The notes under the pieces are model-generated. The model was not told the origin of the DNA, did not search any database, and saw only the letters and a list, made by a program, of their open reading frames with translations. This document shows positions 4,170-64,000 of a stretch of DNA of 64,000 nucleotides, in pieces. Within the stretch, counting starts at the first letter, position 1. Each line of letters starts with the position of its first letter. This stretch comes from a virus. The DNA lies in IMG/VR virus record IMGVR_UViG_3300033146_000244, positions 1 through 64,000 of that record. The stretch is one strand, 5' to 3'. The position numbers and the translations under genes were made by a program.

Positions 4170-7100
4170 ATGCCAGAGGATACAAAGAAACCAATACCAG
4201 TAAAAACAGACGGTAAGAAAGAAGTAGCAGGTTACAAGCCTATGAGCTTCAAAGAGTATAAAGAAGACAGTGACAAACAAGCTAGACGTAGGGGTGCGCT
4301 TACTACCGCAAGACAGACGGTAGGTAATACATTACATAGGGATATAAATATAGATGAGTACGCTAAATACATGCCTATAAAAGGCGTAGTAGGAGACTTA
4401 GAAAAAAGTCAGTTAAACGATATGCGGGCTAGAGGTCAGAGTACTTTGGAACAAGTAGGTAGAACTCTTAACCCTGTTAATAGAGGGAAGAGTATTGGAT
4501 TAGGATTGATTAAAGACTTAGGTTACATAATGGAACTACCTGAGATTATATCAGGTAAAAGTGACTTTACTAATGGGTTAATAGAGTGGGCAGAGAAGAC
4601 TAAAGATAAGACAGTCGGTAAAGTGTACATGGAGAACAATGGCAAAGTATTTGACATGGCTAATCCAGCTTGGTACTTAACACATGGTGCTGATTTATAT
4701 GATAGTATGTCAGAGTTCTTATTACTGGGAGCAGGGATAGGAAGTACCGTTGCTAAAGGAACTAGCCTTACAATCAAAGGACTTAATTTAGTTGGTAATG
4801 CTGCTAAGATAGCAAAGTTTAGTGGTAATGTGCTATCCTCTGCTGCATTAACATACTTTGATGCAGCTAATACAGCAACAAGTGCTTACAAACAGACATA
4901 TAGTAGATTGACATCTGAGATTAACCCTAGAACAGGCAAGTTATTCACAGCTGAAGAAGCTGGTCAATATGCAGGAGATGCCGCTTATAGTGGTTTTGGA
5001 ACACAACTTGTGGTAGGTACAATACTTAATGCGCCATCAATAGCACCATTCTTTAAAACAGCTAGCAGTATAAAGAATAAGACAGCAGCAGAGATGCTTA
5101 AAGCAGTAAAAGGTGAGACAAGGGCAGCCAGAATTGCAAGACTTAAGGAGCTTACATTAGAAAATGAAGCAGTTAAGAAAGGGTTACAGAAGAATGCCCG
5201 TGATGGCTTGGCGCATAAGTTACCACATGAGATGGCACAGGAGTACTTTGAGGAGATAGGTGCTACATGGTCAGAGGAATCTGGAGTAGACTTAGGAATG
5301 TATAACGCAATGGGAGGTAATAAGAAGTGGTATGCAGGATTTGCAGCTATTGACAGATTAGGTAAAGTATTCTTTAGTGCTGAAGGTCAGTTATCAGGTA
5401 TGCTTGGTATAGCGGGAGGAGCAGGACAGACTATAGGTATGCACTATTTAACACCAGGTAGCTTAGGTTATAAGAGAGATAAAACGGGAGCAATAGTGTA
5501 TGATGATAATGACAAACCTATTAGTGTAGAAAAGAATACAGCTAGTTACAGGAGGTCGTGGGGATTTAACGGTAGTAAGCAGCGACTATTTACTGAGTAT
5601 GATGCGTTCAATGCACAACGTATAAATGTAATAAAGGACTTAGAATATATAAATGCTACCACTGAGCAGATAGAGAGATTAAGTGGTAAAACAGATAAAG
5701 CTAATTTAGCACAAGCAGAGGTGTTACAGGATAAGTTGTTTTCGTTGTCCACTGCTGAAAGTTTATTTAATAATAGAGGAGAGAACTTAATAGAGCTATA
5801 TGAGCAGATAGGTGCTTTAGATAATAAGAAGTTGGATGAGGACGGTGATACAGAAGCAATGCGTGCAGGAGTTACAGTTCAACCAGACACAAAGTTATAT
5901 ACATCAGACCACACAAGTAGAGCTAGTAAGTTAATAAGCGATATAAAAGAACTTAATGATGAGCACAGTAGAGTATTAGAACGTTACGATACAGAGGAAA
6001 ACAACTTATATGGTGTGCAGAAGCTGCTAACTCAAATAGCAGTAGCATCTAAGAGGTCAGAACAAACGTATAATGAAGCACGTAGTAAAACAGCTAAAGC
6101 ATATAAAGGTGCTTCTAGTAAATTGTCACTGCAAGCTAAATATGAAGCATTAAAGGAACATATAGCGGAACTTAAAAAAGAGAGTACCTTAGACAAGCAG
6201 ATAGCGGATAATGTGCAACCTGAAGACCTTAAACTAGTAGCAAAAGACTATATAACACTTGAAAAACAAAGACATACTACAGATGATATAATAAATGAAA
6301 GGTTAGAAAGCTATGATGCCTATATAAAGGTTAAGGAAGCTGAGTTAGCAAAACTTAATAAACAGTTAGTAGAAACTACTAAGGAATCTACTGAGGGTGC
6401 TACAGAGATACTAGGATTAGAAGAAACAGCTCCTATGGTTGAGGCATCTATCTCAGAGTATATGCATGATATGAATAGGCAGTTAAATAAAAAGACATTA
6501 CAATATGCTACTAAAAGAAGCACTGTTAAGAAGATACGAGATAATGGACAACGCATACACGATAAAGCTGAGAGGTCTCGTAGAGCACGTAAGAAAAAAG
6601 AGGATATAGTTAAGAACAGGGCTAAGACTACTGAAGCTAACAAAGACACTAAGAGTACAAACGATAACATAAGTGCTAAAGAGAGAGCGTTTAAAGAGGC
6701 TGAAGCTGATAAGAAGGCTATAGAGTTGGCAGAAAGGGAGCAAAGAGAAGCTGAGGAAGCTATAAGAGAAGAACAAGAGGGTGCAGTGATTAAAAATCCT
6801 GAGGGGGTAAAGACTCCCCCCAGTGTAAATGTTAATGTGGAGGCTGCGGTTTCCGATGAGAGTAGAACAGACGTTGTGAATATTGTGTCGGAAGAAGCAG
6901 AAGCTATATTCAAAGAGGTATCAGCTGACAAAGGTAAGTATAAAAAGAACTACAATACTATTAAGAAGGTTATAGCTGCGTTGTTAGCAAAGAAAGCACC
7001 TTTAAAGAGTCTGTTAGGGAATGCAGTAAACGCAGACAACTATGATAAAATATCGGTATTGGATATACCAGCAGATAGTCCAGAAGGGGACTACAAAGCT

Positions 7101-10100
7101 AAGTACATAGATTACCTTAAATGGAAGACAGCTGTAGAAGTTAATAATGCTAAGGAAGCTAGTAAGAAAGCTAACGAAGAGGGAGAAAGTATTGAAGAAT
7201 TACAGAATAGGCTTGTAGAGGTTATTAACGATGCAATAGGTACTAATAAACAAAAGTTGTTAGCTGTGGATATGCTAGCTAACATAGGTAAGTTCGTAGA
7301 GTTGGTGCAGATAGCTAGTAAGCTACATGCCAAGACAGTAGGTATAGAACTAAATGTATATACTAAAGAGGACTTAGCAATAATATATAACATGGCTGTA
7401 AGACTAGCTAAGTTAGAAGGTAGCGCTAAAGTAAGATTTCATGCACAGTACACTAAGGCTGTAGCATCTATGGCTACCTTTGAACCAGTAGAATCTAATA
7501 TCAACGCTAAAGCAGTAGAAGCATTAACTGATAATCTAGGATTAGATGGTAAGTACAAATCAATAAGCACTGGAGAAACAACACTAAAACCTTATAATGA
7601 CGAAGCTATATCTACAAGTGAGGAAGTAGCGGCAGAGGTTATAGCAGATAATAGTACAGAGACCAAGCTATGGGCTAAGGTATATAATGTGTTTGCAAGT
7701 ATAGCCTACAAAATACAAGCTAGTAAGGAGATGGTAAACAGAGAAAGAGGTAATACATACCATGTAAATACCGAAACTGTTAAGAATCTCGCCGCAATAG
7801 ATACATTATACACAGGGGACTCAGTGTCAATAAACATAGATACCGAGTATGATGGGGATGTTATGATGCCAGACGGTACTATGAGGTCTTGGTCTATAGT
7901 AAAAGATGAGTTAAGTATAGTAGCTATTGTTAAAGCAGATGATACTAGTTATATAGGGAATATACCGCTAGTAATAACAAACAGTGACGGTAAGGTAGTA
8001 GGGCATATAAGAACAACTGCTTGGTTAGATAAAAGACGTGGTAACTTACAGGAAGGTATAGATGCAGATAAAGAGATAGAAAAATTAATATCGCTAAGAC
8101 GTGGTATATTAGCAAAAGGTGGTGCTAAAACTACTATAACTAAGATAGGTACAGGCGTTATAAATAGACAACACGAAGGTAAACGTACCACTGTAACAAA
8201 AGCAATAACCAATAAGGCTATAAAGATAATAGTAGGTAGTAATAAAAATTTTGTACATAAGAAAGGTAGTACAGTAAGTATAACTAATTCAAGGTGGTTT
8301 AGTAAATTTGGATTCAACGGTGGTACTGCTTTACATATACCTATGGCTAATGGAGAGTACCATGCAATACCGGTAGCTAATCAGACGTTAGGTACATCGG
8401 GACATAATAGTACCATTGTAGCACTAATACAATTATATGTAAGTGGTGATAAGAAGGCTATATCTGAGTACAGTAAGAAGATACAAGTAGATATAGCAAA
8501 GAAAGGCACGTTAGAGAAGCTGATAAAGATGTTTATATATACAGAGTCTTTTAATAGTGATACAATGGAAGCAGAGAATGCTAAGAATGGTAAAGACCGT
8601 AGAACACAGAGTATGTTTGGTATAACTAAAGAAGGTAATATAAGATTTGCTAACATAAGAGATGTAGTAGGTGGTAAGAATAGTCTGTATGAAATAACTA
8701 GAAATGGTAATGTGCTTGTTGATGGGAGACCTAGTAAAGAAGTATCACTAGATAAGGCTTTAAATATTTTAGAAGGCTATCTAATCAATAGAAGAATGAA
8801 CACTAGTTTAGAGCACTTAGGTAAAGATAGTGCTATTGCTATACCTGTTATAGAAGATGGTAAGTTGTCAAGTAAGAAGTACACTAGCTATAGTGAGTTC
8901 TTAAAAAACCATCTGGAAACAGATATGGTAGAAAGAATAGGAGAAGATAAAGATGGTAATGTAAAATTTAGTTATACGATACAACAGACTACTGAGTTCA
9001 GTACTGAGTTAGAGGGAATAGGTGAAGAAACAGATTTAGAGGGAGATGATGATACTATATGGAATAACTTTGTAGATACTGGTAAACTACCCAGAACTAA
9101 AATAGAGGAGATAGCTAATAAGATTATAAACGGTAGTACTCTTAGTGAAAAAGAGTTATCCATGAGGACTACTTATGCTAAAGATATAGAGATTATACTT
9201 GAACAAACCAAGAGTAATGAAGAGGTAGATAAGGTTGTGTCAGCAGCAGAAACCGGTAAAGTAGATAAGACCACTAAGGAAGTAGTAATAGATAGTAAAC
9301 AATTACGAGAAGATGTTACTAATGCTATCAAAAGACAACAAGCTAGAAAATTACAAAATGGTGATATAGCTATATTACGGGCTAACAAAGATTTAGTAGC
9401 TACTATTAAGAAAGAACTAGGTGTAGGCAGTAAGAGGACTAAGAGAGCCAGTAGAGTTAAGAAAGCAATGGCAGTAGCATCTTATGAAAAAATTACTGAT
9501 ACTATCAAGGTAGCAGTAGATTCTTTAACTATAAAAGGATTGACTCCTATTCAACAAGCTAGTATGGTAGATGCTTTAATTGCTACAATGACTAGACACA
9601 TAGAGGGTGATTGGAATAGAGAGTCTGTGTCCATAGAATTAGAAGAGTTGTACAAAGATTATGTAGGTAACGCGAATGTGTTAAACGCACTATTAGAAGA
9701 ACGTAATGAAGATACACTGTTTGAAGAAAGTGAATTGGATGTAATATGGGACATGGATGCGCAACAGATAAGTGAGTTTTATGCTAGGAGGTCTGCTAGT
9801 ACTAAGACATTAAAAACATGGCAAGCGCATTACAATCTGTTATCACAAGAAGATGTGTTTAAAGATGTGATGACTAAAGTATTTGAAGGGTTAGCAGCAC
9901 GTAAGATAAAAATAGTTATGACAGAGAGTTCTCAAGTAGAAGATGCTGAAGATGGTGGAAACGATATGACAGACGAAGAGAAGATAGTTAATAAGTGGGA
10001 AATTCAGAGTGCTTCAGTAGATACATTACTACGTACCTCCGCTAAGTTTAAATCATTACTAGCAAGTGTTCCTAATTATAAGTATGTAATGGAAGACGGT

Positions 10101-18353: not shown

Positions 18354-21300
18354 ATGGGTTGCCCAAACAAACAACACCCTTTGTGGAAGAACATGGTACT
18401 TAAATTAGGAGAAGAATTAGCTTATAAAGTATATAAAGCTAATAGTGAGAAGTTACTATCAGTTAAGGAAGCAGAAGCAGTAGTAAAGAGAAGAGAAGAG
18501 CGTAGTATCAGTGATGAACAACTAGCCCCCAGTGTAAATGAGATTCCATTGACTGCGATTTCACACCCAGAAACTTACCACAGATACAACCTTACAAATA
18601 TAAAGAACGTTCAAAGACGTTTTAAAACAAATAGTGATTTAATAGCTACAATGCTAAACAATCTAAATAGGCTTAGTGGTCTAAAATTCACTAAAAGAGA
18701 AGTAAGTGAAACAGAGTCAGTCATAGATATTAGTAAAATAGAAGTAGCACAACAAGTCAATGTTGAGTATGCACTAGTTACAGAACCTATATTAGAAGAG
18801 GAAGAAGAGGAAGAAGAGGAGACAGAGAAGATAGTAGATACTAGTAAGGAGGCATTTGAGAAACTCGCTTTTACTACACAGCTGGCAATAAAAAAGGTAA
18901 GAGAAGTGAAAGCTGACTTAATAGCAAGGTCTAACAGAGATAATACATCTAAATCAGATATAAGAGATAGGTTAGATAAATTAGGTAGAGATGAAGCTGA
19001 CTTATTTCAGAATGATACGTTTATTACTGCTTTAGGTATAGCATCCGAAGCTATGGACAGATTAGAGATGGAACTTAGTAAGAACGTACAACTATCGGAT
19101 ACAGAGGTATCCTTAATGGGTAGAGAGCTCAGTACTTGGAAAACATTGTTAGATTGGATACAAGATGCAAAAAACAGTGACTATAGTGCTTTACACACTA
19201 AAGCAGTACAAGACAGTACTGAAGTATTACAAGGAAGGTACACTCGCATACACGCTGATATAATGAAGGTAACTGTAGAGAATACAAAGGCAGGGTACAA
19301 ACGAAAGATGCGTAAAGCCCCTAGTAAAGATTTTAGTACAGTTAGCGTAGAGATAAATAAAGCAAAAAGGTTTGCAGCTGATTTATCAAGAAGTGCTGAT
19401 AAGCTAGCACAATATATAGATACACTGCTTAAATCTAAGGATAGAAATACTGGTAATGTTATAGCTAAAATATTCAGTGTTATCAATGCTAAGATGACGG
19501 AAATGACCGATGCAGAAATAGACATAACAAGTAAGGAGTTTCAACGTAAGTACACAAATAGTGCGGGAGATGGGTTGGTAGATGAGTACAGCGAGCACTA
19601 TAGAGAACAGGTTAAAGCTCACGAGCACACTAGAATACGGATTAATAATTTAAAGTATGGTAAACAGCGTACTAAGCAGACAAAGAAGTTTAAAGAGTGG
19701 GAAAAGAATAATCTAATAACAGTAAACGCTTCTAAGGTGACAGGCTATAAAGCAGAAGTAACTGCCGAAGAGAGAGCTACACTAGAGAAGGAGGAACTAG
19801 ATAGACTAACTAGTATGTATGGCGCAGAGAAAGCCAGCCAGATGATAAAAAAAAGTAAAGAGCTGTATAAAGAATACTTAAAAGATAAGAAGATTAAGAT
19901 AGCTAGAATAGAAGAAGATGCTGAGGTTCATACAGAAGAAGGTAAACTACTAGAGGGTGATGCCAAGAAACAGTACATATATAATAGAACAAATTATTTT
20001 ATACGTGCTAATAACCCCTTATACTTAAATGAGTATCTCAGTGATAAGAAAAGTAACAGCTTTGTACATACAGGAGTATATAGCGTACAAGAGCCTATGC
20101 ACTATGAGAGTAATGACATACACTACGATAAGAGATTTAAGGAACTACAAAGTGATGAAGCAGCTATGGAGTTCTTAGATTGGTATAAAGCCACACTAGA
20201 TGCTTTAATTAGTAAGTTACCACAGAATATAGTAGATAAACTTGATAGTGCTTTCTTACCAGATGTGACTAAGAAGTTATCAGAAAAGTTGGTAGAAAAA
20301 GGGTTTAACGCTAAAGGTATATCAGATAGGATTATAGATTTGTTAAAGAGTGGAGAGTTTACTGAATTAGCTTTAGAGAGCATCACTGCTGATGGAGACC
20401 AATCATCATTCTTTGACAGTGCTAATAGGAAACAAAGACGTGTATTAGTGGCTAACCATAGAAACAAAGCTAAAGAGATTGGTATAGAGATAACCAAGTT
20501 AGAAGATGCTATAGAATTAAACACAGCTAAAGCAGCAGCTAAAACTAGAGAACTTGACAAATATATCAAATATGGCTTTGAGAATGACCCTGATGCCCTT
20601 GTGGCACGTGCAGAGTTAAATGTAATAAATAAGAAGATAGCGGAGGATACTGCTAAAATAGAGCCTTTAAAAGTAAAGAAAGATAAAGTAAAAGAAAATA
20701 AAAGTACTGACTTGTTTGGTATATTAAAAGCATTTGCTGTTATGGCTATATCGTATGAACAGAGTGCTGAAGTAGAAGATAGTGTATTACTAGCTAAGAG
20801 GGTAATGGACAATATAACACAGTATAAAGACCATAAAGGAGATTTGATAGAAGATGCTGACGGAGCAAAGAATATAAAAGCATTAGCTGAGTATACTATC
20901 AATAGTAGCTTATATGGCGAAACAAGGGTAGATAGAAAGACTACTAATATAGATGTAGTACTTAGCAAAGACGATAGAGTAGTTGCTAAAGCTGTAAAGA
21001 AGATAAAAATACAAGCATACGAAGATGAGGCTAATGGTATAATAACATCAAAGGAACGTCATAAAATAGTAGTAGAGCAGGACGCTAGGTACGAAGCACT
21101 TAATAAAGCTAAGTTAAGTTGGAGTAAAGTACTAGATTGGGTGTTAGCTTACACACAGTTAAAAGGATTAGGTTATAATCCCATATCGTCTTCTGTGAAC
21201 CTAGTATATGGGTTAATAATGAATCAGATGTATGCAGCATCACAGACAGATACGACACATAAGGATATGATGTGGGCATTTAAGATAATGTGGGGTGCAG

Positions 21301-22415
21301 CATTCGGTCAAGCTACCGGAAAGAAGATAGGAGAAGCTAAAAAGATAGATAATCTTATAAATAAGACAAACATATTATTTGAGGTGAATGAAGCTGCTTA
21401 TGGAACTAAGAACAGTATAAGTGATAAGCTAAAAAAGTTAGGCTTCTTAATACCATTTGAAATGCAGAAACGTGGTGAGTATATCATACAAGGAATGATG
21501 ATGGTAGCATTAATGCGTACTAAAAAAGTTACTATAGGTATTAGTGAAGTATCACTATATGACTGTTATACAGAAGAAGGTGTATGGGATACGGAGAAGT
21601 ATGGAGCAGAGCCCTCAGAGTGGTCTGATGATATAAGTGCTAAGGATAGTAATGAATATACAAGGTTTAGAGATATGATGATTCAAACTATCAAGAGAGT
21701 GCACGGTAACTACGACCCGACGTCATTCTTAGAGGGTAAATCTACATCTATCGGTAGAATGGCATTTCAATATAAGAGTTGGGTACCAGAGGGTGTATTA
21801 ACTAGATTTGAGGATGCGCATGATGAAGAACAAATGGGTAGAGTAGTGAAGGGTAGATATGTTACTTATAAGGATATAAAACTAAAGAATGCCTTTAGTA
21901 TAATGCTTAATCCTATGTACCTCTTAGGATTAAAGAAGGTTGAACTTAATGGGTTCGGTAATATAAAGAGTGAGGTAGATTTGCAGAACATGAGATATAA
22001 CATAGCAGAAGCTCGTTGGATAATGGTAGCAATAACTGTTAATTTACTAGCAGCATTAGCATACGCAGTTGGAGATGATGACGATGATGAAGTACGTGGT
22101 ATAAAATCAATGATTAACACAATGGGTAGATTACAGAGTGACCTTACATTTTATATGAACCCACTAACTATAGTAGATATAGCTAAAAATCCTTTTCCTG
22201 TGCTACAAACGTTTAGTGATGTACATAAAGCTATAGTAACCATCCGTAAAACAGCTTTTAGTGATAGTGACTATTATAGCACATCGCACTTGCTTAAAAG
22301 TATAGCTAAGCCACTGCCACTCGTTGGCAACATTGCATCTGTGCTTAATTCAGATAGTAGAATATATGCAAATGAACCAGTTAAGATATTTAAGGGCATG
22401 CTAGAAGAGGAGTAA
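18354..22415 (+). CDS. Large virion/cargo protein, 1353 aa
   Basis: It starts MGCPNKQHPLWKNMVLKLGE, an N-terminal pattern (CPN..HP.WK) that I associate with very large phage virion proteins of uncertain function. Residues about 145-160 contain a nearly unbroken run of glutamates. Long Lys/Glu/Asp-rich helical regions fill the middle (about 160-850). Near residue 1230 there is one hydrophobic segment (MVAITVNLLAALAYAVG) followed directly by a DDDDDE acidic patch. No catalytic motif is recognised. It is the last gene of the rightward cargo operon, behind the giant polymerase, and is likely co-packaged with it or acts as its partner; this is inferred from position. It ends with TAA 32 bases before a strong terminator and meets the leftward operon head-on. 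Confidence 0.75.
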   Translation: MGCPNKQHPLWKNMVLKLGEELAYKVYKANSEKLLSVKEAEAVVKRREERSISDEQLAPSVNEIPLTAISHPETYHRYNLTNIKNVQRRFKTNSDLIATMLNNLNRLSGLKFTKREVSETESVIDISKIEVAQQVNVEYALVTEPILEEEEEEEEETEKIVDTSKEAFEKLAFTTQLAIKKVREVKADLIARSNRDNTSKSDIRDRLDKLGRDEADLFQNDTFITALGIASEAMDRLEMELSKNVQLSDTEVSLMGRELSTWKTLLDWIQDAKNSDYSALHTKAVQDSTEVLQGRYTRIHADIMKVTVENTKAGYKRKMRKAPSKDFSTVSVEINKAKRFAADLSRSADKLAQYIDTLLKSKDRNTGNVIAKIFSVINAKMTEMTDAEIDITSKEFQRKYTNSAGDGLVDEYSEHYREQVKAHEHTRIRINNLKYGKQRTKQTKKFKEWEKNNLITVNASKVTGYKAEVTAEERATLEKEELDRLTSMYGAEKASQMIKKSKELYKEYLKDKKIKIARIEEDAEVHTEEGKLLEGDAKKQYIYNRTNYFIRANNPLYLNEYLSDKKSNSFVHTGVYSVQEPMHYESNDIHYDKRFKELQSDEAAMEFLDWYKATLDALISKLPQNIVDKLDSAFLPDVTKKLSEKLVEKGFNAKGISDRIIDLLKSGEFTELALESITADGDQSSFFDSANRKQRRVLVANHRNKAKEIGIEITKLEDAIELNTAKAAAKTRELDKYIKYGFENDPDALVARAELNVINKKIAEDTAKIEPLKVKKDKVKENKSTDLFGILKAFAVMAISYEQSAEVEDSVLLAKRVMDNITQYKDHKGDLIEDADGAKNIKALAEYTINSSLYGETRVDRKTTNIDVVLSKDDRVVAKAVKKIKIQAYEDEANGIITSKERHKIVVEQDARYEALNKAKLSWSKVLDWVLAYTQLKGLGYNPISSSVNLVYGLIMNQMYAASQTDTTHKDMMWAFKIMWGAAFGQATGKKIGEAKKIDNLINKTNILFEVNEAAYGTKNSISDKLKKLGFLIPFEMQKRGEYIIQGMMMVALMRTKKVTIGISEVSLYDCYTEEGVWDTEKYGAEPSEWSDDISAKDSNEYTRFRDMMIQTIKRVHGNYDPTSFLEGKSTSIGRMAFQYKSWVPEGVLTRFEDAHDEEQMGRVVKGRYVTYKDIKLKNAFSIMLNPMYLLGLKKVELNGFGNIKSEVDLQNMRYNIAEARWIMVAITVNLLAALAYAVGDDDDDEVRGIKSMINTMGRLQSDLTFYMNPLTIVDIAKNPFPVLQTFSDVHKAIVTIRKTAFSDSDYYSTSHLLKSIAKPLPLVGNIASVLNSDSRIYANEPVKIFKGMLEEE
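18528..18537 (+). repeat. Recurrent motif CCCAGTGTAA, site 2
   Basis: Sense orientation, extended to GCCCCCAGTGTAAATG. It encodes APSVNE in an apparently disordered region near residue 60 of the 1353-aa protein. Confidence 0.8.
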
Positions 22416-25072: not shown

Positions 25073-27856
25073 CTAACCACAACTACTATCTCCGCATGTA
25101 TCACATATAGAGCAACCACCTTCGTATCTTATAGTACCACCGCATATAAGACAGTCTCCTTTTACGGTATCATCTGCTATATAGTTGCTTAATACTCTCT
25201 TTACAGCTGTTGCAAATACACCTATAGGCAATTCTACCTTATCTATATCTCTTACTGCTTGTAGTACTGTTCCACCCATTCTAAACACTCTGCTAAGTAG
25301 CCTAGTCAGTACCTCCTCTTCACCATTCATATAGTGAGATGCTAAGTCTTCTAGCACCACGTAGTCAGTCTTTAAATCATATACCGTCTTTGTATCTTTA
25401 CTTACATGTTTTACTATTTCTCCTTTGTTTACTAATAAATGAGTCTTTACATCTTTGAATGCAAATATTTCATACACCTTATCTTTATGTAAACCAATTA
25501 CTATCGTCCACAAGTTACTATTAATCCGCACACTATGTACATCGCAATTAAGTGTTTCTGGTCGTGCAGTCTCTACATTTACACTGGGGAGCGTAGCGTG
25601 TTTATGAACAACACCCATTCTGCAACCATCTCTGTACACAGTAAGTCCTTTCAAATTTGCTTTGTGTGCAGCTTTGTATATCTTTCCTATAGTCTTCTCT
25701 GTAGTATCATTCGGTAAGTTTATTGTACTGCTTATAGCACTATTTATATAACGCTGCATTGTCTTTTGTACTGCTATTCTATCTTGCCAGAGTATATCAT
25801 GTGCTGTCTGTTTATACCAAGAGGATGACTTTATAATCTCTCCTATGTTTGTTATACCATTACCCAGTCCAGTAGCATTCAACCAGTCTACAAATGGTGG
25901 GTGCATTGTAGGCAGTGTCTGCCATTTATCCCCTACCTCATCTATGAAGTCATATTCTGCATCATCAAGTACCTTCACATTTCTAAAACCTTGTACACTA
26001 TATAATGGTTCTGCTGCATTGCTTACACCTAATATAATACTACCAGTACCTACTGGTGCTATTGTACTTGTTTGTATGTTTCTTAATGCTTTCTCCGTAG
26101 ATACATTGTTATCTATTCTGTAGTCCTTACTAAACATACTCTCTCCTCTTGTATTAGCTAAAGCATAGTTAGTCCTCTCTTCTGTTTTAGCCTTTATATC
26201 CATTATACTACTTATATAGCTCATATCACTGTACTTTAATCCTAAAGCAGCTTGTGTATCAGCTAGTCCTGTAATACCTATTCCAACTCTTCTCGTTTTT
26301 ATTAGCTTTCTGCGTATATTAGTCCACAAATCAACTTCGTCCCTATCTATAGGTAGTAGTTTATTAAGTATTCTATCTATATGTTCTATCTCTACGTCCA
26401 CAAGGGTATCAGCTATCTTATGATATATTTCACAGTCCTTTGTATATTCTACCGTGTCAAACTCAGCGTTTCTTGTAAATTTGTCTATCACGTAAGCATA
26501 CAAGTTATGGTGCATCAATCCACAAGACTCATCTGGTGGTAAGGGTTGTTCTCCGCATTGCCCAGTTACTATACCGTTAAAAGTGCCTTTATGTTTTAAA
26601 GGTTCTGTAAAACAAAATGTATCTTCATTGTCTACTTCTATTACAGTTATTTTTTTTACAACTGTCTGTATCACCTTATCAAGATTATCTAGGTAGTAAG
26701 GTTCTATAGTATCTCCTACCACTATATCTTTTGCTTGTACTTTTATATTACCAGCTAGATACCAGTTATGTGCAGGGGTGCATTCTAACGAATAGCTGCG
26801 TGTAGGTACCGTTACTGATGGTGCTACATCTTCTGTGTCTATGCGTAACCACTTATTTGTTTTTCCAGTCCTCTCTATTTTAACAGTAGCCCATTGACTA
26901 CCATTCCAAACGTCATGCCAGTTACCTACTTCATTTTCTATAAATAGGTCACCTACATGTGTAGTTATACGTGTATTACCTCTTACGCATGGATTAGTAC
27001 TCACCTCCTCATACTCCTTACCGTATTTACCAGTACCGCCTCTAAGTATTGTATCCCAGAATAGTACACCTGGTTCTGCACTTAACCAGTTATTGTGCAC
27101 CAGCTTGTCCCATAGTTCTACAGCACGTATTACTTTAATATACATACCGTCTATTAAGCATAGTCCTTCTGTATACTTAGCTTCCCAACCTGCTGGTAAT
27201 TTAGCATCTATAGGGAATGTTTGCACATACTGTGAGTCTGTTTCTACCGCTTCCATGAAATCATCACTCACTTTTACTGATATATTTGCTCCAGTAATCT
27301 TAGTTGTGTCCTTTTTAGCATCTATGAAGTCTCCTGCATCAGGATGCCTAACGTCTATACTCAACATCAACGCACCTCGTCTGCCGTCTTGTGCGACTCT
27401 GCGTGTGTCTTCACTATACTGTTCCATGAATGGTACTATGCCTGTAGATGTATTAGCTGCATTATTAACTACAGCTCCTTTTGGTCTAATGTGCGATAAG
27501 TCGTGTCCTACACCACCTCTACGCTTCATAAGATTTACAGCATCTAAAGCTGTTCTGTATATACCATTATAAGAGTCTGGTGTATTACCTATTACAAAGC
27601 AGTTACGTGTACTTACTAGCTTATCAGTACCAACACTTGCCATATAGCTACCACCTAGTATGAATTTACCTTCATTAAATAGTCGTAGTATTGTTATCTT
27701 GTCTATACCGTCTGTGTAATTTTTCTCTTTATCCTTTTTTACAATAGCGTTTGCTATCCTTTCAAATGAGTCTTGTATTGTGACTTCTGCTCCTTGTAAC
27801 CATTTCTGATTAAAGATGCTTCTACCAAACTCGTTATTTTTAAAGTATTCTCCCAT
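25073..27856 (-). CDS. nrdJ: Class II (B12-dependent) ribonucleotide reductase with intein, 927 aa
   Basis: Reduces ribonucleotides to deoxyribonucleotides for phage DNA synthesis, using adenosylcobalamin as radical source. Features seen: a barrel with the catalytic cysteine motif STNP-CGEQPLPPDESC split by an intein (residues 290-433); GVGHDLSHIRP; the GLTVYRDGCR signature near the end of the barrel; a TSCPD-like domain (LNCDVHSVRIN) at about residues 770-860; and a C-terminal zinc-ribbon tail with paired cysteines (CLICGG, CSICDTCG). No ATP cone and no separate small subunit in the window, as expected for class II. Without the intein the enzyme is about 783 residues. The recurrent DNA motif falls in the linker just before the TSCPD domain. 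A GroES-like gene lies upstream. Confidence 0.93.
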   Translation of the reverse strand: MGEYFKNNEFGRSIFNQKWLQGAEVTIQDSFERIANAIVKKDKEKNYTDGIDKITILRLFNEGKFILGGSYMASVGTDKLVSTRNCFVIGNTPDSYNGIYRTALDAVNLMKRRGGVGHDLSHIRPKGAVVNNAANTSTGIVPFMEQYSEDTRRVAQDGRRGALMLSIDVRHPDAGDFIDAKKDTTKITGANISVKVSDDFMEAVETDSQYVQTFPIDAKLPAGWEAKYTEGLCLIDGMYIKVIRAVELWDKLVHNNWLSAEPGVLFWDTILRGGTGKYGKEYEEVSTNPCVRGNTRITTHVGDLFIENEVGNWHDVWNGSQWATVKIERTGKTNKWLRIDTEDVAPSVTVPTRSYSLECTPAHNWYLAGNIKVQAKDIVVGDTIEPYYLDNLDKVIQTVVKKITVIEVDNEDTFCFTEPLKHKGTFNGIVTGQCGEQPLPPDESCGLMHHNLYAYVIDKFTRNAEFDTVEYTKDCEIYHKIADTLVDVEIEHIDRILNKLLPIDRDEVDLWTNIRRKLIKTRRVGIGITGLADTQAALGLKYSDMSYISSIMDIKAKTEERTNYALANTRGESMFSKDYRIDNNVSTEKALRNIQTSTIAPVGTGSIILGVSNAAEPLYSVQGFRNVKVLDDAEYDFIDEVGDKWQTLPTMHPPFVDWLNATGLGNGITNIGEIIKSSSWYKQTAHDILWQDRIAVQKTMQRYINSAISSTINLPNDTTEKTIGKIYKAAHKANLKGLTVYRDGCRMGVVHKHATLPSVNVETARPETLNCDVHSVRINSNLWTIVIGLHKDKVYEIFAFKDVKTHLLVNKGEIVKHVSKDTKTVYDLKTDYVVLEDLASHYMNGEEEVLTRLLSRVFRMGGTVLQAVRDIDKVELPIGVFATAVKRVLSNYIADDTVKGDCLICGGTIRYEGGCSICDTCGDSSCG
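25579..25588 (-). repeat. Recurrent motif CCCAGTGTAA, site 3
   Basis: Sense to nrdJ (minus-strand reading TCCCCAGTGTAAATG). It encodes LPSVNV in the linker before the TSCPD domain. Confidence 0.8.
26558..26989 (-). other. Mini-intein in NrdJ, 144 aa
   Basis: Starts at Cys290 (CVRGNTRITTHVGD, block A), has a TPAHNWYLAG block B with its conserved His, then EVDNEDTFCFTEP (block F) and FNGIVTGQ (block G) before the +1 Cys434. Removal restores STNP-CGEQPL, the reductase active-site motif. The +1 residue is the catalytic cysteine, so unspliced enzyme should be inactive. There is no endonuclease domain. The last residue is Gln rather than Asn and the penultimate residue is Gly rather than His, as in a minority of known inteins. 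Confidence 0.92.
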
Positions 27857-31348: not shown

Positions 31349-32315
31349 CTAGTAGTTGTTTTAGTTTATTTGTGTTGTTATAATGTTTTACCATGTCACT
31401 GGCATCAGTAACTTTGGTTATATCAGGTAGCACTATGTTTACAAAATTAGGGTACTTTCTAAGTATCTCTTTTGCGTATAGCTGTCCTCTATTCATTCTT
31501 TTTTCCCAGTCATTGTCATACAGTATATAGATATTAGGGAATATATCTATTAACTTATTTAGTAGCGGTTGTTCCAGATACAAGCCTTCGGCTTGTGTTC
31601 CAATTACGTTTGGGTATCCAGCTTTCTTTATAACTATAACATCTTTTACACTTTTCGTTATAATTAAGTAACCTAATTTTCTATCTAGCTTATTTAAGTT
31701 ATGTATTATTTTACCACTAACACCTCTCATGTTGTTTAACCATTTGTACTTCTTATTTAGTGGTTGGTATATCTTCTTATACACTTTATTTTTATAGTAC
31801 CACGTATAGCATATTACTATATTATTACCTGCGTAGATAGTTTTATCACCTACTTTAAAAGACATTAATGAAGATATATTACCTTCATCTGCAAGGTCTT
31901 GTTTTGTTATAGTGTAATCATTCCAGTATTGTAGTGTCGCTTTTGGGTGTTTCCTGTACGCAGTTGTTTCTATAGGGTTGTATGCAGCCCCCTGTGTATA
32001 ATGTAATCGTTGCTGCGTTTTTGCATCTGCTATGCCACCCTCTACTTCACTTCTGATTTTATCCATCGCTTCTCCATACGATATATTATTTAACTTCATT
32101 ACTAAGTCTATACCATCTCCTGTGTCACCAGTAGCCAAGTCTTTATATTTAACCTTACCGCTTCTTGTGCTGAATACTGCGAAGGACTCCACTTTATCAT
32201 CTCTGAATGGTGACTGTATTGTTATTGGTATTTTCCTAATACCTAAGTAGTGTTGTAATATTTGCCTACTGTCCATATACAAGAATACCCAACAGCTACT
32301 AGAGCCATTGGGCAT
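31317..32315 (-). CDS. DnaG-family primase, 332 aa
   Basis: Makes RNA primers for phage replication. Residues 36-90 resemble the DnaG N-terminal region after the zinc finger (SPFRDDKVESFAVF, DLATGDTGDGIDLVMKLN), but no zinc-binding cysteines are visible. A TOPRIM domain spans about 212-300: GYLIITKSVKDVIVIKKAG, then NIYILYDNDW with the DxD pair at 267-269. The usual first TOPRIM glutamate is replaced in TKSVKD, a substitution I have seen in related phage primases. A start at 32276 (MDSRQILQHYLG) is also plausible and may be the true one. The SSB-like gene lies upstream and the helicase further up the same operon. Confidence 0.83.
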   Translation of the reverse strand: MPNGSSSCWVFLYMDSRQILQHYLGIRKIPITIQSPFRDDKVESFAVFSTRSGKVKYKDLATGDTGDGIDLVMKLNNISYGEAMDKIRSEVEGGIADAKTQQRLHYTQGAAYNPIETTAYRKHPKATLQYWNDYTITKQDLADEGNISSLMSFKVGDKTIYAGNNIVICYTWYYKNKVYKKIYQPLNKKYKWLNNMRGVSGKIIHNLNKLDRKLGYLIITKSVKDVIVIKKAGYPNVIGTQAEGLYLEQPLLNKLIDIFPNIYILYDNDWEKRMNRGQLYAKEILRKYPNFVNIVLPDITKVTDASDMVKHYNNTNKLKQLLDDNIKFNDRL

Positions 32316-40680: not shown

Positions 40681-42849
40681 CTAATGTCCCCATGTATCTT
40701 GTATTACGGGTTCTGCTTTCATAGGCACTATCTCACAGAATAAAGCACCCGCATCTTCCATAGCACTTTTTACATCTAATGCCAACCATTCAGCATCTTC
40801 CTCCTTACATGAACTTAATATCTCATCATGTATCTCTGCTAAAAGTTTTACGTCTGTATGTAGTGGTGTGTAACCTTTCGCTATCAATCTCTTCCTCAAT
40901 AACAATATAGCTATCTTAGTCATATCACCAGCAGTACCTTGTGTTGGTGTATTCATTGACAACCTCTTATAGCTGCTATATAATCTTATTAACGCATACA
41001 AAGTTTTTTTATTTCCTTTCCAATACTTTGTATTTAATTGCTTATTCTCTAGTAAGCTCTTTAGTAATCTTGCCATCTTCTCTCTACCTATACTCTCTAT
41101 TACTTTCTTATAGTATTCTAAAAACTTGTCGTAGTTTGGTAGCATTCTCTTTCTATGCGTTACCTCATTTATCAGTATATACCCCTGCTTAATACTATCT
41201 TTCGCTACCTGCGAAAAATAAGCAACCTTCTCAGGAAACACTGCCAGCACACCGTTATATAACTCAGTAGCCTTCTCTTCCGTTATACTAAAAGATGTAG
41301 CTATTGTCTTAATACTCCCACCGTAATCTAGCTTGAAGTTCACTGTTTTAGATAAGTCCCTCTTGTCCTTATCAAATTCTACACTATAACTAGGTGTCTT
41401 CTTACTGATATTTTGAGGTACTCCTTCCAGTATTTCAAATAAGATGTTAGCTACAAAGGAATGCAAGTCACCGTCACCATTAAGGTAAAAGTCTATTAAC
41501 TTACTATCCTTACACTTATTAGCTGTAACTACTGATTCTTGACCACTGTAATCACAGTTTATCATTTTATAACCCTTTGCAACCCTAAAACAGCTTCTTA
41601 CTTCCTCGTCATGTGGTATATTCTGTATATTGGGCTTACTACTACTTGTCCTACCAGTAGTGAGTATCTGCCAATATGAAGCATGCACTCTACCGTTTAC
41701 AACGAACTTGTTTACAAACTTCACCCCATAAGTAGATATAGCTTTTTTATACTCTCTGTATTTAAGTAATATACTAAATATCTCATGTACTGGTATATTC
41801 TGAGTTAGTATTGCTTTACTTGTCCCAATCTTTTTCTTACCGTAGTCTTTTAAGTCGGCTCCGTTTATCCTACTTAACAACTCTATAAGTTGCTTAGGTG
41901 AGTTCCAGTTAGTAGTTGTGTTACCGAACAACCCATATTTGTCAGTACTTACTATCTTTTCTTTTATAGCAATATCATCTAATTTCTGTCTAGTTTTTAG
42001 TATCTTTGTTTTAAAGACACTTCCCAGCTTTAACCAACTTTCTACTACAATAGGCATACCGTTATATTCCATATCACCTAACCCAAATGATACTTCTGCT
42101 TCCATCGTAGGTAAGTCATAATCACAGTCGTCTAGTTTAAATGTATTTCTATAACCATTCTCTCTAAGTAACCGTTCTTGTTTAACTAGTATCCTACTAG
42201 GTGCAACAATGTCCTGTACCGCATATACTATGTGTCTTACAGTAAAAGGTTTTTGACCAATAGTTAAAAATAACATCGTAGTATCCTTATCCAATGACTC
42301 ATCAAAGTATCTGTAATAGCTACCTGCCATTGTGAAGTATCCAAATGTAGTTAGCTCAGTAAAGTCGGTTTTACCCTTATCTCCTGTAGTACCTGCATCT
42401 ATTATCATATCATTAATACTGGTATCCTCTAATATGTTTAGTACTATACCGTACTGTTTTAACATATTATAGTCGTATTTTAAGTTAGTGCCACTCCATC
42501 TAATACTTTCTAGCTCCTTTTTTAATAATCTAATATCGTAGTGTCTTGTATCTATTACTACCTGATGTTCCAGATTTCCAAATTGTAGCATAATCACCTT
42601 ATCCTTTCTAGGGTCTAAACCAGTAGTCTCTGTATCCAATATTGGTTTTGTGTTGTTTAAAGTAGTTGGAACTGCGGACAAAGAGTTTACACTATACACT
42701 GGGGTACTCATGTAACCTCCTATGAGCTCCTTAGCTTTTCTGGTTATACTTTTCTTATCTAGTGTTATAAGCGTAGTGTCTATACCTAATGTATTAACTG
42801 CTATATCAGCTACGTTATAGAGGGATTCTCCCCCGTAATAATATATCAT
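40681..42849 (-). CDS. Family A DNA polymerase with 3'-5' exonuclease, 722 aa
   Basis: Replicates phage DNA. The proofreading domain starts with PILDTETTGLDP (Asp72 and Glu74, ExoI). The palm has motif A INCDYSGQES (catalytic Asp), motif B RDLSKTVNFKLDYGG on the O helix and motif C LLAEIHDEI near residue 695. There is no 5' nuclease domain. The size and layout fit crAss-like and T7-like polymerases. The N-terminal linker (STPVYSVNSLSA) contains the variant copy of the recurrent DNA motif. Overlaps the upstream small gene by four bases (ATGA). Confidence 0.95.
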   Translation of the reverse strand: MIYYYGGESLYNVADIAVNTLGIDTTLITLDKKSITRKAKELIGGYMSTPVYSVNSLSAVPTTLNNTKPILDTETTGLDPRKDKVIMLQFGNLEHQVVIDTRHYDIRLLKKELESIRWSGTNLKYDYNMLKQYGIVLNILEDTSINDMIIDAGTTGDKGKTDFTELTTFGYFTMAGSYYRYFDESLDKDTTMLFLTIGQKPFTVRHIVYAVQDIVAPSRILVKQERLLRENGYRNTFKLDDCDYDLPTMEAEVSFGLGDMEYNGMPIVVESWLKLGSVFKTKILKTRQKLDDIAIKEKIVSTDKYGLFGNTTTNWNSPKQLIELLSRINGADLKDYGKKKIGTSKAILTQNIPVHEIFSILLKYREYKKAISTYGVKFVNKFVVNGRVHASYWQILTTGRTSSSKPNIQNIPHDEEVRSCFRVAKGYKMINCDYSGQESVVTANKCKDSKLIDFYLNGDGDLHSFVANILFEILEGVPQNISKKTPSYSVEFDKDKRDLSKTVNFKLDYGGSIKTIATSFSITEEKATELYNGVLAVFPEKVAYFSQVAKDSIKQGYILINEVTHRKRMLPNYDKFLEYYKKVIESIGREKMARLLKSLLENKQLNTKYWKGNKKTLYALIRLYSSYKRLSMNTPTQGTAGDMTKIAILLLRKRLIAKGYTPLHTDVKLLAEIHDEILSSCKEEDAEWLALDVKSAMEDAGALFCEIVPMKAEPVIQDTWGH
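42695..42704 (-). repeat. Recurrent motif, variant site 5
   Basis: Minus-strand reading CCCCAGTGTATAGTGTAAAC, as if GTGTA were duplicated within CCCCAGTGTAAA. It lies in the linker before the PolA exonuclease domain. Confidence 0.55.
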
Positions 42850-47944: not shown

Positions 47945-48013
47945 CAATACAGGTGGGACTTGAACCCACATAACTACCGTAGTAGTGCACTATCCTATTT
48001 GTGCTACTGTACC
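47945..48013 (-). tRNA. tRNA-like gene with shortened anticodon arm (possible tRNA remnant)
   Basis: Read on the minus strand: acceptor 5' strand GGTACAG pairs with CTGTATT (two G-T pairs, discriminator G). A D arm follows, GCAC/GTGC with an AAATAGGATA loop. The T arm is complete, GTGGG-TTCAAGT-CCCAC. Only 17 bases lie between the D arm and T stem where about 22 are expected, and they fold as ACTAC-TACG-GTAGT, so no normal 7-base anticodon loop or anticodon can be read. The total is 69 bases. It is either a decayed tRNA or a tRNA-like element kept for another purpose. Confidence 0.5.
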
Positions 48014-50783: not shown

Positions 50784-50891
50784 ATTTATAGTTTCCTATA
50801 AATCTTTATACTTGCCGTAAAGGATTCATCAGCCTTACTTACTATTCTTTAATATTCTATTACTACCGTTACACGGTAGCCCCTGTGTAAA

Positions 50892-51424: not shown

Positions 51425-51484
51425 CTATGTTGTTAAACTACCAGTGCAATGTAGTAGGTGCAAAACGCAGCAAATGATTTACAT

Positions 51485-51494
51485 TTACACTGGG
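51485..51494 (-). repeat. Recurrent motif CCCAGTGTAA, site 6 (intergenic)
   Basis: Minus-strand reading TCCCCCAGTGTAAATGTAAAT. This is the only copy outside a plausible coding region, 32 bases beyond the 3' end of the 123-aa gene. It shows the motif does not depend on coding for a peptide. Confidence 0.8.
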
Positions 51495-51525
51495 GGATTA
51501 GTTGAACTTAAATATGGTTAGTCAC

Positions 51526-55067: not shown

Positions 55068-55919
55068 TTACATGGTAAATGCTTCGTTAGAGCTGCTTGT
55101 GAAGGATGCGAATGTTCTAACTTCACCGTGTTCTGCTCTTAACGCTTTTCTAGCATCAGTAAGCTCATCTTGTAAGATTTCAAGCATTATGGTTTCGGTG
55201 TCTTCGTCGTAATCACCTTCTTTAAGGCTTGCAACTTCTAACGCATGCTCTCTAAGCAATTCAGCGTTAGTAGTGCTTTTAGCTCGTATCTTTGACAAGT
55301 CAAAGTTTAACACGATTTGAGAGTGTTCTCTAACATTGTCAGTTCCACTAATAGCATCTCCTTTGAGTCCTGCTTCAAACGCTAGTGTTATTACCTGTCC
55401 CTCTTTAAGGTTCATTTTACGTACAATGCTTGCAGGTAGAGTAATTTTAACTGTCCTTTTACCCGTTACTGCATTACTGATAGCACCGTAGTTTAGTTCG
55501 GTAACACCTCTGTTGATATACGTAGCTTTCTCCATTCTTTCAAATGTTACAGCATCGTGAGGTAGAATACTATCGCAGAACTCTACCCAGTCAATACTTT
55601 GACCGATAAGGGTAATGTTATAAAAGGCACGATACATATCTTCCACAGCATCCTGCTTATACATCTTTGCGACTTTGACAACTACTGTCTTAGGTTTACG
55701 ACTACTTTGTGGATTACTCAAACTTTCGTAATACTCCGCAATCTGCAATGTTGTATAACCAGCGTTAGTAAGTGCACTGTCAAACACAGGACGTTCTTGT
55801 GCGTTAGGCATAGCTCCGTCGGCTAAGTTGAACTCTTCACGTAATTCTTTCATATTCTTTACTGGTACGGCTACATCAGAATATCCTTGTATTAATACTG
55901 CTCTGTTAAAATCTTGCAT
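55068..55919 (-). CDS. First leftward gene, AbrB-like DNA-binding segment, 283 aa
   Basis: Residues about 153-180 read GKRTVKITLPASIVRKMNLK then EGQVITL, the swapped-hairpin pattern of SpoVT/AbrB (MazE-like) DNA-binding domains (IPxxIxxxxxLxxGxxvxl). The N-terminal 120 residues are helical, and the C-terminus is acidic and ends AFTM. As the first gene beside the noncoding control region it is well placed to be an early regulator of the divergent operons. The AbrB reading rests on one motif and could be a beta-barrel of another kind. The ATG is preceded by an A/T-rich leader. Confidence 0.6.
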   Translation of the reverse strand: MQDFNRAVLIQGYSDVAVPVKNMKELREEFNLADGAMPNAQERPVFDSALTNAGYTTLQIAEYYESLSNPQSSRKPKTVVVKVAKMYKQDAVEDMYRAFYNITLIGQSIDWVEFCDSILPHDAVTFERMEKATYINRGVTELNYGAISNAVTGKRTVKITLPASIVRKMNLKEGQVITLAFEAGLKGDAISGTDNVREHSQIVLNFDLSKIRAKSTTNAELLREHALEVASLKEGDYDEDTETIMLEILQDELTDARKALRAEHGEVRTFASFTSSSNEAFTM

Positions 55920-58844: not shown

Positions 58845-61049
58845 ATGACTACTCGCATGACAAAGCTAAGTAAGCTCTATAGAATAGACAGTAGTATAAT
58901 AGAGGATGTATATAAGCTAGCTAAGAAACATGACATACATATATACGATGCTTACACTGCATACCTACGGTACGACGCCCCCAGTGTAATAGATAAGCAC
59001 TGTGCCGATTTTTCCTTTAATCAGAAGATAGTTAGTTGGTACAAGAGTGATAGATACTTAGTTAATACAGAGAAGTACAGAGAAGCAGCAGAAACATTCC
59101 GAACTACTGGTAGTTACACGAACTTAAAACCAAATAAGCACCCTAATAGTGAGTACATGAAGTTCTGGGTAGAAGAGGCTCGTAGGAGTATATATGGGTT
59201 TCATATAGGTAATGACTGGATATCTGGTTATTACTATTTTTATTTGAATTATTCTCCTATAGATTTGGCGGTAGTATTGGACGATACATCTAGTAACGGT
59301 GCTATAAGGGGAGACCGTATAACTGACTTTGCTTCTATGTGGGACGGTGATTACTACTACTTTCACTATTTAGAAGAATGTGAACGTACTGGTAAACAAG
59401 CAGCAGTACTTAAGGCACGTGGTAGAGGATTTAGTTGGAAACACGCTTCTATGCTAGATAGAAACTTCTTCTTGATACCTAAGAGTAAGTCAATGGTGTA
59501 TGCTAGTAGTAAAGAATACTTGACTGGTAATGACGGTATATTAACTAAGGCTTGGTCTATAATGAGCCACTTAGATTTGAATACGGCTTGGGCTAAGAGA
59601 AGACAGGTTAAGAACACGCAGGACAGTAAGAGAGCATCGTTAGAACGGGTGAAAAACGGCGTAAAGACTGAAACTGGGTTCATGTCAGAAATATCTGGAA
59701 TTACACTGGGGGATAGTGTGCATAAGCTAAGAGGAAAGCGTAGTAAACTGATAATATTTGAAGAGTCTGGTAGTTTTAAGGACTTGGAGACTGCGTGGAT
59801 AGTTTCAGACCCAAGTGTTAAGCAAGGTAATATAGTGTTTGGTCTTAAGGTGGCATTTGGTACAGGAGGTGAAGAGGGTAGTCAGTTTGAAGGGTTGAAG
59901 AACTTATTTTATAAACCAGACGCTTTTAACGTGTTGTCTTTACCTAATGTATGGTCAGGTAATGCAGAACATAACAAGGTGGGGTGGTTTGCTCCTTCCT
60001 ACATTAACTTGGAAGGGCACTATGATAAAGATGGTAATAGTAATATAGAGGTTGGTAAGAAAGCAATAGAACAAGAAAGAGAAGATGCGTTAGTAAGTGG
60101 TGTAGCACCTAGTACATTCCAGAAGATGAAAGCAGAGAACCCCTTAGTGCCTGAAGATGCTATATTGAGGAGTACGCTGAGCCCTTTTCCGGTACAGATG
60201 CTATCAGAACATTTGGTCTTGCTGGAGACAGATACTGCTTATAGAGGTAAGGTTAGTAAGGGTACTTTATCCTTGACTATGGAAAATGAGGTTGTATGGC
60301 AAGAGGACTTGTTGAATAAAGTACATGTCATAGGCACTGATGATGTAAATAGCTTGAACGTAGATGGTGGTATAGAAGTTTATCAGCACCCACCAAGTAT
60401 GAAGGTTTCAAGAAATACGTTTATTATAGGGGTAGACCCGATAGACTTTGATAGGAATGAAGTTGGTAAGAACTTCTCTTTAGGTAGTATGTTTGTTATG
60501 AATACACTTACTGAGCAGATAGTAGCTGAGTATACTGGAAGACCTGCTAATGCTAATGATTTTTATGAGAACGTGAGGAGGTTATCTATGTATTATAATG
60601 CTAAGGTGATGTATGAGAATAACTTGAAAGGGTTGTATGTATATTTTACTAACAAGTTTAGTGAGCACATGTTATCTTTAAAGCCTACTATACTGCAGGA
60701 TACTAATGAGCAAATGAAGGTAGGTAATAGGAAGTATGGATTCACTGCTGCTGGTAATCAATCTTCAAGCATACTTAAGTATGGGAGACAACTTATAAAG
60801 GAGTGGTTAGAAAAGAGACTATCAGGCACAGACGATACTAGGTTACTATATACTATTAGAAGTGCTGGTCTGGTGCGAGAGTTGATAGATTGGCACGCAG
60901 ACGGTAACTATGATAGGGTAAGTGCGTTGATAGCTGTTATGATACATCTTGCTGATACTGATAGGACTAGGACTAGAAATGGTAGTAAATCTACTGAGGT
61001 AGATGTAGAGGCTCGTAATTTCTATAATAGGCCTTTTCTTGGGTGGTAG
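58845..61049 (+). CDS. terL: Terminase large subunit, 734 aa
   Basis: Motor and nuclease that packages DNA into the prohead. The ATPase has a Walker A-like LKARGRGFSWKHA (about 188-199) and Walker B LIIFEESGSF (about 302-311). The nuclease half begins with FIIGVDPIDFD (about 526-536), containing a metal-binding Asp. The size is in the range of crAss-like terminases. The N-terminal 100 residues contain helices similar to the two small upstream proteins. Two copies of the recurrent DNA motif lie within this gene, 0.7 kb apart and in opposite orientation. The portal gene follows after 77 bases. Confidence 0.93.
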   Translation: MTTRMTKLSKLYRIDSSIIEDVYKLAKKHDIHIYDAYTAYLRYDAPSVIDKHCADFSFNQKIVSWYKSDRYLVNTEKYREAAETFRTTGSYTNLKPNKHPNSEYMKFWVEEARRSIYGFHIGNDWISGYYYFYLNYSPIDLAVVLDDTSSNGAIRGDRITDFASMWDGDYYYFHYLEECERTGKQAAVLKARGRGFSWKHASMLDRNFFLIPKSKSMVYASSKEYLTGNDGILTKAWSIMSHLDLNTAWAKRRQVKNTQDSKRASLERVKNGVKTETGFMSEISGITLGDSVHKLRGKRSKLIIFEESGSFKDLETAWIVSDPSVKQGNIVFGLKVAFGTGGEEGSQFEGLKNLFYKPDAFNVLSLPNVWSGNAEHNKVGWFAPSYINLEGHYDKDGNSNIEVGKKAIEQEREDALVSGVAPSTFQKMKAENPLVPEDAILRSTLSPFPVQMLSEHLVLLETDTAYRGKVSKGTLSLTMENEVVWQEDLLNKVHVIGTDDVNSLNVDGGIEVYQHPPSMKVSRNTFIIGVDPIDFDRNEVGKNFSLGSMFVMNTLTEQIVAEYTGRPANANDFYENVRRLSMYYNAKVMYENNLKGLYVYFTNKFSEHMLSLKPTILQDTNEQMKVGNRKYGFTAAGNQSSSILKYGRQLIKEWLEKRLSGTDDTRLLYTIRSAGLVRELIDWHADGNYDRVSALIAVMIHLADTDRTRTRNGSKSTEVDVEARNFYNRPFLGW
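58980..58989 (+). repeat. Recurrent motif CCCAGTGTAA, site 7
   Basis: Sense orientation in terL, GCCCCCAGTGTAAT, coding APSVI. The A-tract is one base shorter than in sites 1-4. Confidence 0.75.
59701..59710 (-). repeat. Recurrent motif CCCAGTGTAA, site 8
   Basis: Antisense to terL: the coding strand reads TTACACTGGGGGAT, coding ITLGD. It is 0.7 kb from site 7 and opposed to it. Confidence 0.75.
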
Positions 61050-63442: not shown

Positions 63443-63457
63443 TAAAGATATAATCGT

Positions 63458-64000
63458 ATGGATGTTAATGCACCAATCACAATAGATTTAGGTGAAGGTA
63501 ATGGAATAGATAACCCTGTGGACTTAGGGGCAACTAGTGCGGAAACGGGGGCTAATATTGGTATTACACTGGGAGAGCCACAGAGTGGCGATAAATTAGA
63601 GATAGGGAATAATGATGCACCTATAGAAGATGGTGTAAATAAGGAAGAAGTTGAGGTATCTAGTGGTGAAGAAGAGGGTACTAATGGAGAAGATAGATAT
63701 GATGAATCAAGTGTTGATGCGGGTGAGTTATCAAGATACTTACAAGATGAGGGTATATTACCAAAGGGTGATATAGGAGATGATTACAGTATGGACGACT
63801 TCCATGATGCTATGGAAGATAGGATAACTAGTGGTATAAAGAGTGGTGTAGAGAGTATATTAGCTGGAGCACCCAAAGAAGCAGTTGATTATTTTAATCA
63901 TCTTAAGAACGGTGGTAGCTTACAGGACTATCAAAGAGCAACGTCTTCTGACTATGGAAGTGTTGCAGCTGGTGCTTTAAAAGATAATGTAGGTTTACAA
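63458..64000 (+). CDS. Acidic protein, 5' part (possible head scaffold)
   Basis: The frame from ATG at 63458 is open to the window end (181 residues seen). The first 90 residues are acidic and low-complexity (VNKEEVEVSSGEEEGTNGED); the following part has short helices (ELSRYLQDEGILPKGD). Acidic disordered proteins directly after the portal gene are often scaffolds, and in crAss-like phages the capsid gene follows in this region. Recurrent motif site 9 lies near residue 37. Confidence 0.65.
   Translation, partial: MDVNAPITIDLGEGNGIDNPVDLGATSAETGANIGITLGEPQSGDKLEIGNNDAPIEDGVNKEEVEVSSGEEEGTNGEDRYDESSVDAGELSRYLQDEGILPKGDIGDDYSMDDFHDAMEDRITSGIKSGVESILAGAPKEAVDYFNHLKNGGSLQDYQRATSSDYGSVAAGALKDNVGLQ
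63564..63573 (-). repeat. Recurrent motif CCCAGTGTAA, site 9
   Basis: Antisense to its gene: the coding strand reads ATTACACTGGGAGA, coding ITLGE in a disordered acidic region. Confidence 0.75.

Follow-up and report, generated by a model that had tools for sequence, protein, structure and literature searches.

A two-part DNA site dispersed through unrelated genes of a Crassvirales genome, and genus-specific counterparts in other crAss-like phages

Why does one short DNA word recur in unrelated genes across a phage genome? The original prediction raised this question for a 64,000-bp stretch of viral DNA (the window; bases 1-64000 of a source record of 84,568 bp), in which it placed CCCAGTGTAA at eight positions. 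All eight are exact (6819+, 18528+, 25579-, 35683-, 51485-, 58980+, 59701- and 63564-). The extra leading C that it reported is confirmed at seven of them, the exception at 63564 reading CTCCC, and the variant it claimed at 42695 is present at 42694 as ACCCCAGTGTAT. The 8 copies in the window compare with 0.11 expected, and no shuffle reached 8. The 84,568-bp genome holds 10 exact copies, an excess over codon-preserving shuffles (see below), so the predicted enrichment held in the full genome. CCCCAGTGTAA occurs nine times genome-wide and the reversed 11-mer not at all, and CCCCCAGTGTAA is the top over-represented 12-mer of the genome (8 observed versus 0.005 expected). The invariant core is CCCAGTGTAA; the 14-mer that gave the original prediction its title is exact at four of the 10 sites.

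No end repeat was found in the 84,568-bp record. Because a single ORF spans the record ends in frame (83486-84568, continuing into 1-1206), the contig is probably circular and complete. The crAss-type TerL, portal and major capsid protein are all present, and judged by these three proteins the virus belongs to the Crassvirales; identity to known members is ~40% for TerL and ~33% for the capsid protein. Members of this order are among the most abundant human gut viruses, and their persistence in the absence of lysogeny awaits explanation. A search by TerL and capsid for closer relatives yielded one syntenic genome, IMGVR_UViG_3300033146_001643 (R025), with 61% identity in TerL and 70% in the capsid protein. 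Two further features of the genome were noted. The NrdJ gene (25073-27856, minus strand) carries an insertion at residues ~290-434 that is missing in R025; it starts with Cys, ends with ...FNGIVTGQ and is followed by Cys, with a weak NCBIfam match typical of intein-bearing proteins, and is a probable mini-intein. A tRNA at 47945-48013 (minus strand) was detected by Rfam and missed by ARAGORN.

Six near copies and the 10 exact ones make up a set of 16 sites. On the 3′ side of the word, hereafter box A (CCCC[A/T]GTGTAA), lies a second element, roughly [C/G]CG-N-TTT (box B). Measured from the initial base of box A, a CG dinucleotide lies at 28-30 nt in 9 of the 16 sites, versus 0.8 expected. Because box B was first noticed by eye, the relevant control is a comparison with 3000 random sets of 16 sites, in which the best three-position CG window was 7. 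TGCGNTTT occurs seven times genome-wide, four times downstream of box A, and several of the remaining sites have a box-B-like element ~12 or 24 nt further along. The site is bipartite, a feature absent from the original prediction. Overall, the genome carries 10-16 copies of this two-part tag in unrelated genes and on both strands:

6817-6828, plus strand: box A, CCCCCAGTGTAA, sense in the giant RNAP-type gene
6844-6854, plus strand: box B, CTGCGGTTTCC
7808-7819, minus strand: near copy, TCCCCTGTGTAT, antisense in the giant RNAP-type gene; CG at offset 28
18526-18537, plus strand: box A, CCCCCAGTGTAA, sense in the gene of a 1353-aa protein (18354-22415)
18553-18562, plus strand: box B, CTGCGATTTC
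25579-25590, minus strand: box A, TCCCCAGTGTAA, sense in NrdJ, directly past the barrel domain
31988-31999, plus strand: near copy, CCCCCTGTGTAT, antisense in the primase gene
32013-32024, plus strand: box B, CTGCGTTTTTGC
35683-35694, minus strand: box A, CCCCCAGTGTAA, sense in gene 35315-35938, which adjoins the DnaB-like gene; CG at offset 40
38031-38042, plus strand: near copy, CCCCCTGTGTTA, antisense in gene 37028-38194; followed by CTGCATTTT
42694-42705, minus strand: near copy, ACCCCAGTGTAT, sense in the N-terminal region of PolA
50879-50890, plus strand: near copy, GCCCCTGTGTAA, intergenic, convergent with 51485
51460-51470, minus strand: box B, CTGCGTTTTGC
51485-51496, minus strand: box A, CCCCCAGTGTAA, intergenic
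58978-58989, plus strand: box A, CCCCCAGTGTAA, sense in TerL, residue 45
59003-59015, plus strand: box B, TGCCGATTTTTCC
59701-59712, minus strand: box A, CCCCCAGTGTAA, antisense in TerL, residues 286-290 (GITLGD); peptide kept, DNA not
63564-63575, minus strand: box A, CTCCCAGTGTAA, antisense in the gene that follows portal; CCCCCGTTTCC takes the place of box B, with its CG at offset 28
73604, plus strand: near copy beyond the window
74839, minus strand: exact copy beyond the window, antisense
83909, plus strand: exact copy beyond the window

The gene labels NrdJ, PolA and TerL given in the original prediction were borne out; the RNA polymerase label of the giant protein draws only on size, synteny and a DFDFD motif. 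The antisense copies that it described exist, but where it counted two the genome has three exact ones (59701, 63564 and 74839), and the near copies are mostly antisense. Likewise, the copy that it placed between genes (51485) is intergenic, but so is the near copy at 50879.

The excess lies in the DNA and not in a peptide, as the original prediction had argued. When synonymous codons were shuffled genome-wide, CCCCAGTGTAA was found 6 times in sense versus 0.007 expected and 2 times in antisense versus 0.023 (8 coding copies versus ~0.03 in all). For CCCCAGTGTA the figures are 8 versus 0.04 in sense and 2 versus 0.06 in antisense. Copies are found in sense, antisense and intergenic positions. 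At the antisense TerL site the peptide GITLGD has a counterpart in R025 (GVTLGD) and, as GITL, in crAss phages further removed; R025 encodes GVTLGD as GTTACTTTAGGAGAC, without the motif. The sites thus look like a DNA word that was built by substitution where the protein allowed.

The word of this virus is absent from R025 and from 35 other crAss-like records. Its spelling is private, and the phenomenon, on the evidence of other genomes, is shared with other Crassvirales, a point absent from the original prediction. Each genus of Asinivirinae has a separate, dispersed and strand-indifferent 9-mer: CTCCAGAAG in crAss001 (29 copies; 25, 28 and 15 in its genus-mates), CACCAGAAG in DAC15 (24 copies), CTCCTGAAG in Mahstovirus cr106 (15 copies), CACTTGAAG in Kolpuevirus (16 and 9 copies) and GTCTTGAAG in Kahnovirus cr85 (11 copies). 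Counts across genera are at background, crAss001 having one CACCAGAAG and DAC15 one CTCCAGAAG. Against codon-preserving shuffles, crAss001 has 14 sense copies versus 2.25 and 12 antisense versus 0.83, and DAC15 has 10 versus 1.0 and 10 versus 0.7; the excess is smaller for cr106, cr85 and cr112. Alignment of 102 pooled Asinivirinae sites on the core reveals additional signal at +10 and +13, as well as a run of G at +22 to +26; a second part is therefore present in these motifs too. In a distant contig (R042; IMGVR_UViG_3300035396_000150), a de novo search recovered CCAGAGAA at seven sites, on both strands, and 7 of 7 have CCGRAA 18-23 nt downstream. The motifs of this contig, of Asinivirinae and of the present virus share the letters CCAG, a hint of homology that is suggestive only.

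No clear motif of their own was found in R025, the nearest relative, in phi14:2 or in several other crAss-like genomes. Among words from other genomes, TACTTTGGA of cr50_1 (MT774375; 20 copies, 11 versus 1.8 in sense and 9 versus 1.1 in antisense against codon-preserving shuffles) is a candidate for another genus-specific motif outside Asinivirinae. We set aside TTACTCCAGA of cr50_1 and the CTCCTG words of R039 and R058, which are largely sense-coding peptide effects, and CCAGAAGA of R025, which is mostly Pro-Glu codons. Matches to the R042 pattern in other IMG/VR contigs proved to be conserved unrelated genes, and those contigs are not relatives. In a control on the first 50 kb of T4, the top enriched words scored far below those of the crAss genomes and were mostly strand-biased. 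Within the open-access literature, the scope of the search, we found no earlier report of such motifs in Crassvirales.

Between close relatives within Kehishuvirus the sites stay in place, one of the checks proposed with the original prediction. Of 25 crAss001 sites that align with tikkala (95% identity), 24 are kept, versus 71.5% of flanking 9-mers (P 0.0025); for cr112 (88% identity) the figures are 14 of 19 versus 50% (P 0.03). Kehishuvirus copies are thus better conserved than the sequence around them. When crAss001 is compared with DAC15, most coding sites have turned over, with 1 of 15 mapped ones retained. That coding site and three intergenic sites keep place and orientation, and in all of them base 2 has changed from T to A. 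The intergenic triple (102365+, 102416- and 1580- in crAss001; 503+, 575- and 2421- in DAC15), matched by synteny and spacing and not by aligned flanks, has its last two sites 1843 bp apart in crAss001 and 1846 bp apart in DAC15, and adjoins homologous genes (39% identity, E 6e-20) and a tRNA-Gln. The shared base switch is what binding sites would do if their reader changed specificity. The first two members of the triple form a convergent intergenic pair (crAss001 102365-102424; DAC15 503-583), which lies near gp104, annotated as a transcriptional regulator, in crAss001 and inside the terminal repeat in DAC15.

We suggest that a single sequence-specific DNA-binding protein, most likely phage-encoded, reads these dispersed, asymmetric sites and that it touches box A and box B with two modules. 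Copies would arise in situ by substitution, on either strand, wherever the gene tolerates them, and the specificity of the reader would drift among viral genera, so that sites are rewritten. Taken as one claim that leaves the role to be decided among the alternatives below, this reading has, in our estimate, a probability of about 0.5. Its first part, a DNA site read by a protein, is considerably firmer and we regard it as likely; among the hypotheses of the original prediction, a site bound by a phage protein seems to fit best. The likeliest job would be regulatory, the few intergenic copies serving as operators and the many intragenic ones as roadblocks or silencing points, a role that we put forward tentatively. 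Whether many Crassvirales carry a genus-specific DNA identity code, in which two-part sites in essential genes on both strands co-evolve with a phage reader and each genus rewrites its sites, is to our mind not quite an even bet. Some observations count against the preferred reading: R025 and several other crAss-like genomes have no motif of their own, the sites show no orientation with transcription, and most coding sites turn over between genera.

The binding protein was not found. We rejected gene 55068-55919 as a candidate, its structural model being poor (pLDDT 39) and its product without homologues in phage records. This gene (minus strand, 283 aa) is the first in the leftward block and has a weak MazE/AbrB-type DNA-binding match; its product is possibly a regulator.

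Among the alternatives, a recombination or replication site is unlikely but deserves a hearing. Here phage enzymes (the exonuclease, the annealing protein Sak4, the primase or the helicase), and not a regulator, would recognise the site as a signal for priming or strand exchange, or in the manner of Chi. The sites are asymmetric, lie on both strands and are indifferent to genes, and the phage gene set includes an exonuclease, Sak4, ligase, primase and DnaB-like proteins. The site, however, is longer than known Chi and in two parts, its spelling differs within one host genus (crAss001 of B. intestinalis versus DAC15 of B. thetaiotaomicron), and its density is just ~1 site per 3-9 kb. Nor is it enriched in the sampled bacteria, among which the true host of this virus may not be included: the 12-mer has ≤2 copies per genome in 396 Bacteroidota genomes, the 15-mer occurs as singletons only in GTDB species genomes, and the crAss001 word is at background level in 26 Bacteroidales genomes. 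These counts speak against a host version of the Chi-like site named in the original prediction. Exact 15-mers in IMG/VR are also singletons, which we take as chance.

A genome-organising, partition, condensation or packaging site across the genome is rather improbable. Copies lie around the whole circle, and DAC15 has copies inside its terminal repeat. The regular spacing of the original prediction was reduced to a slight evenness, with 1.2% of random sets more even than the 11 core copies, and orientation alternates at 14 of 16 changes among the 16 sites (P 0.0095), though not for the exact copies alone. Evenness and alternation are, however, weak or absent in other genomes (Fisher P 0.04 overall), and no ParB-like gene was found among the genes searched, which were part of the gene set. 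Known partition sites, moreover, are usually palindromic and clustered.

An RNA-level signal in the transcript, for antitermination, pausing or processing, is very unlikely. Between 6.8 and 51.5 kb most exact copies point the same way as transcription, but three exact copies and most near copies are antisense, sense and antisense copies are about equal in crAss001 and DAC15, and the sites have no common RNA fold; a structured RNA signal is disfavoured on these grounds. Scans for tRNAs and Rfam families found one ordinary tRNA, away from the sites.

A small mobile element accommodated by protein linkers, also proposed originally, is more doubtful still. Many coding copies do lie in linkers and some differ from R025 by 2-6 residues; however, no fixed-size insert was found relative to R025 (0-6 residue differences where alignable, and none at the TerL site), past ~40 nt the sequences flanking different copies share no more than random sequences do, and copies occur on both strands and include point variants, so a mobile mini-element is disfavoured. 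Chance, base composition, codon usage or a repeated peptide, which would suit the remaining enriched words examined in this genome, nearly all of them sense-coding, can practically be discounted for these sites in view of the codon-preserving nulls, the antisense and intergenic copies and the conservation in place in Kehishuvirus.

Dispersed, genus-specific and conserved, the sites suggest that Crassvirales have a regulatory, recombination or genome-organising system that has gone unrecognised. The cultured phages crAss001 and DAC15 carry strong versions of the motif, which makes the question directly testable.

How do these sites compare with known systems? Chi sites, read by RecBCD or AddAB, are host-encoded, host-enriched and 5-8 bp long. 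The present sites are similarly short, asymmetric, over-represented and intragenic, but they are not enriched in the sampled bacteria and have two spellings within Bacteroides phages. The start-associated sequences of cluster K mycobacteriophages are a short, asymmetric, phage-specific dispersed repeat, some copies of which have an extended second part. Those sequences adjoin gene starts (PMC3203893), whereas our copies lie mid-gene.

The stoperators of cluster A mycobacteriophages are asymmetric sites of ~13-14 bp, present at 20-30 per genome, whose sequence drifts among related phages (PMC6550527, PMC9283540). Their repressor is monomeric and uses two domains to recognise an asymmetric 13-bp site (PMC9283540); it halts transcription elongation and gives superinfection immunity (PMC6550527, PMC9283540). 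The sites reported here resemble them in being asymmetric and dispersed (a 12-bp core plus a second box), in number (10-16 copies here, 24-29 in DAC15 and crAss001) and in a spelling that drifts between related phages. Stoperators, however, follow the direction of transcription, and the phages that carry them are temperate and have a known repressor (PMC6550527, PMC9283540), whereas the crAss-like copies are mostly intragenic, in phages considered lytic and without a known repressor. Because the orientation rule fails (14 sense and 12 antisense in crAss001, 10 and 10 in DAC15, and 3 of 10 exact copies antisense here), we do not file the present sites as stoperators. By analogy they are nonetheless closest to stoperators, and on that precedent a reader protein with two modules would be the simplest explanation of the two boxes.
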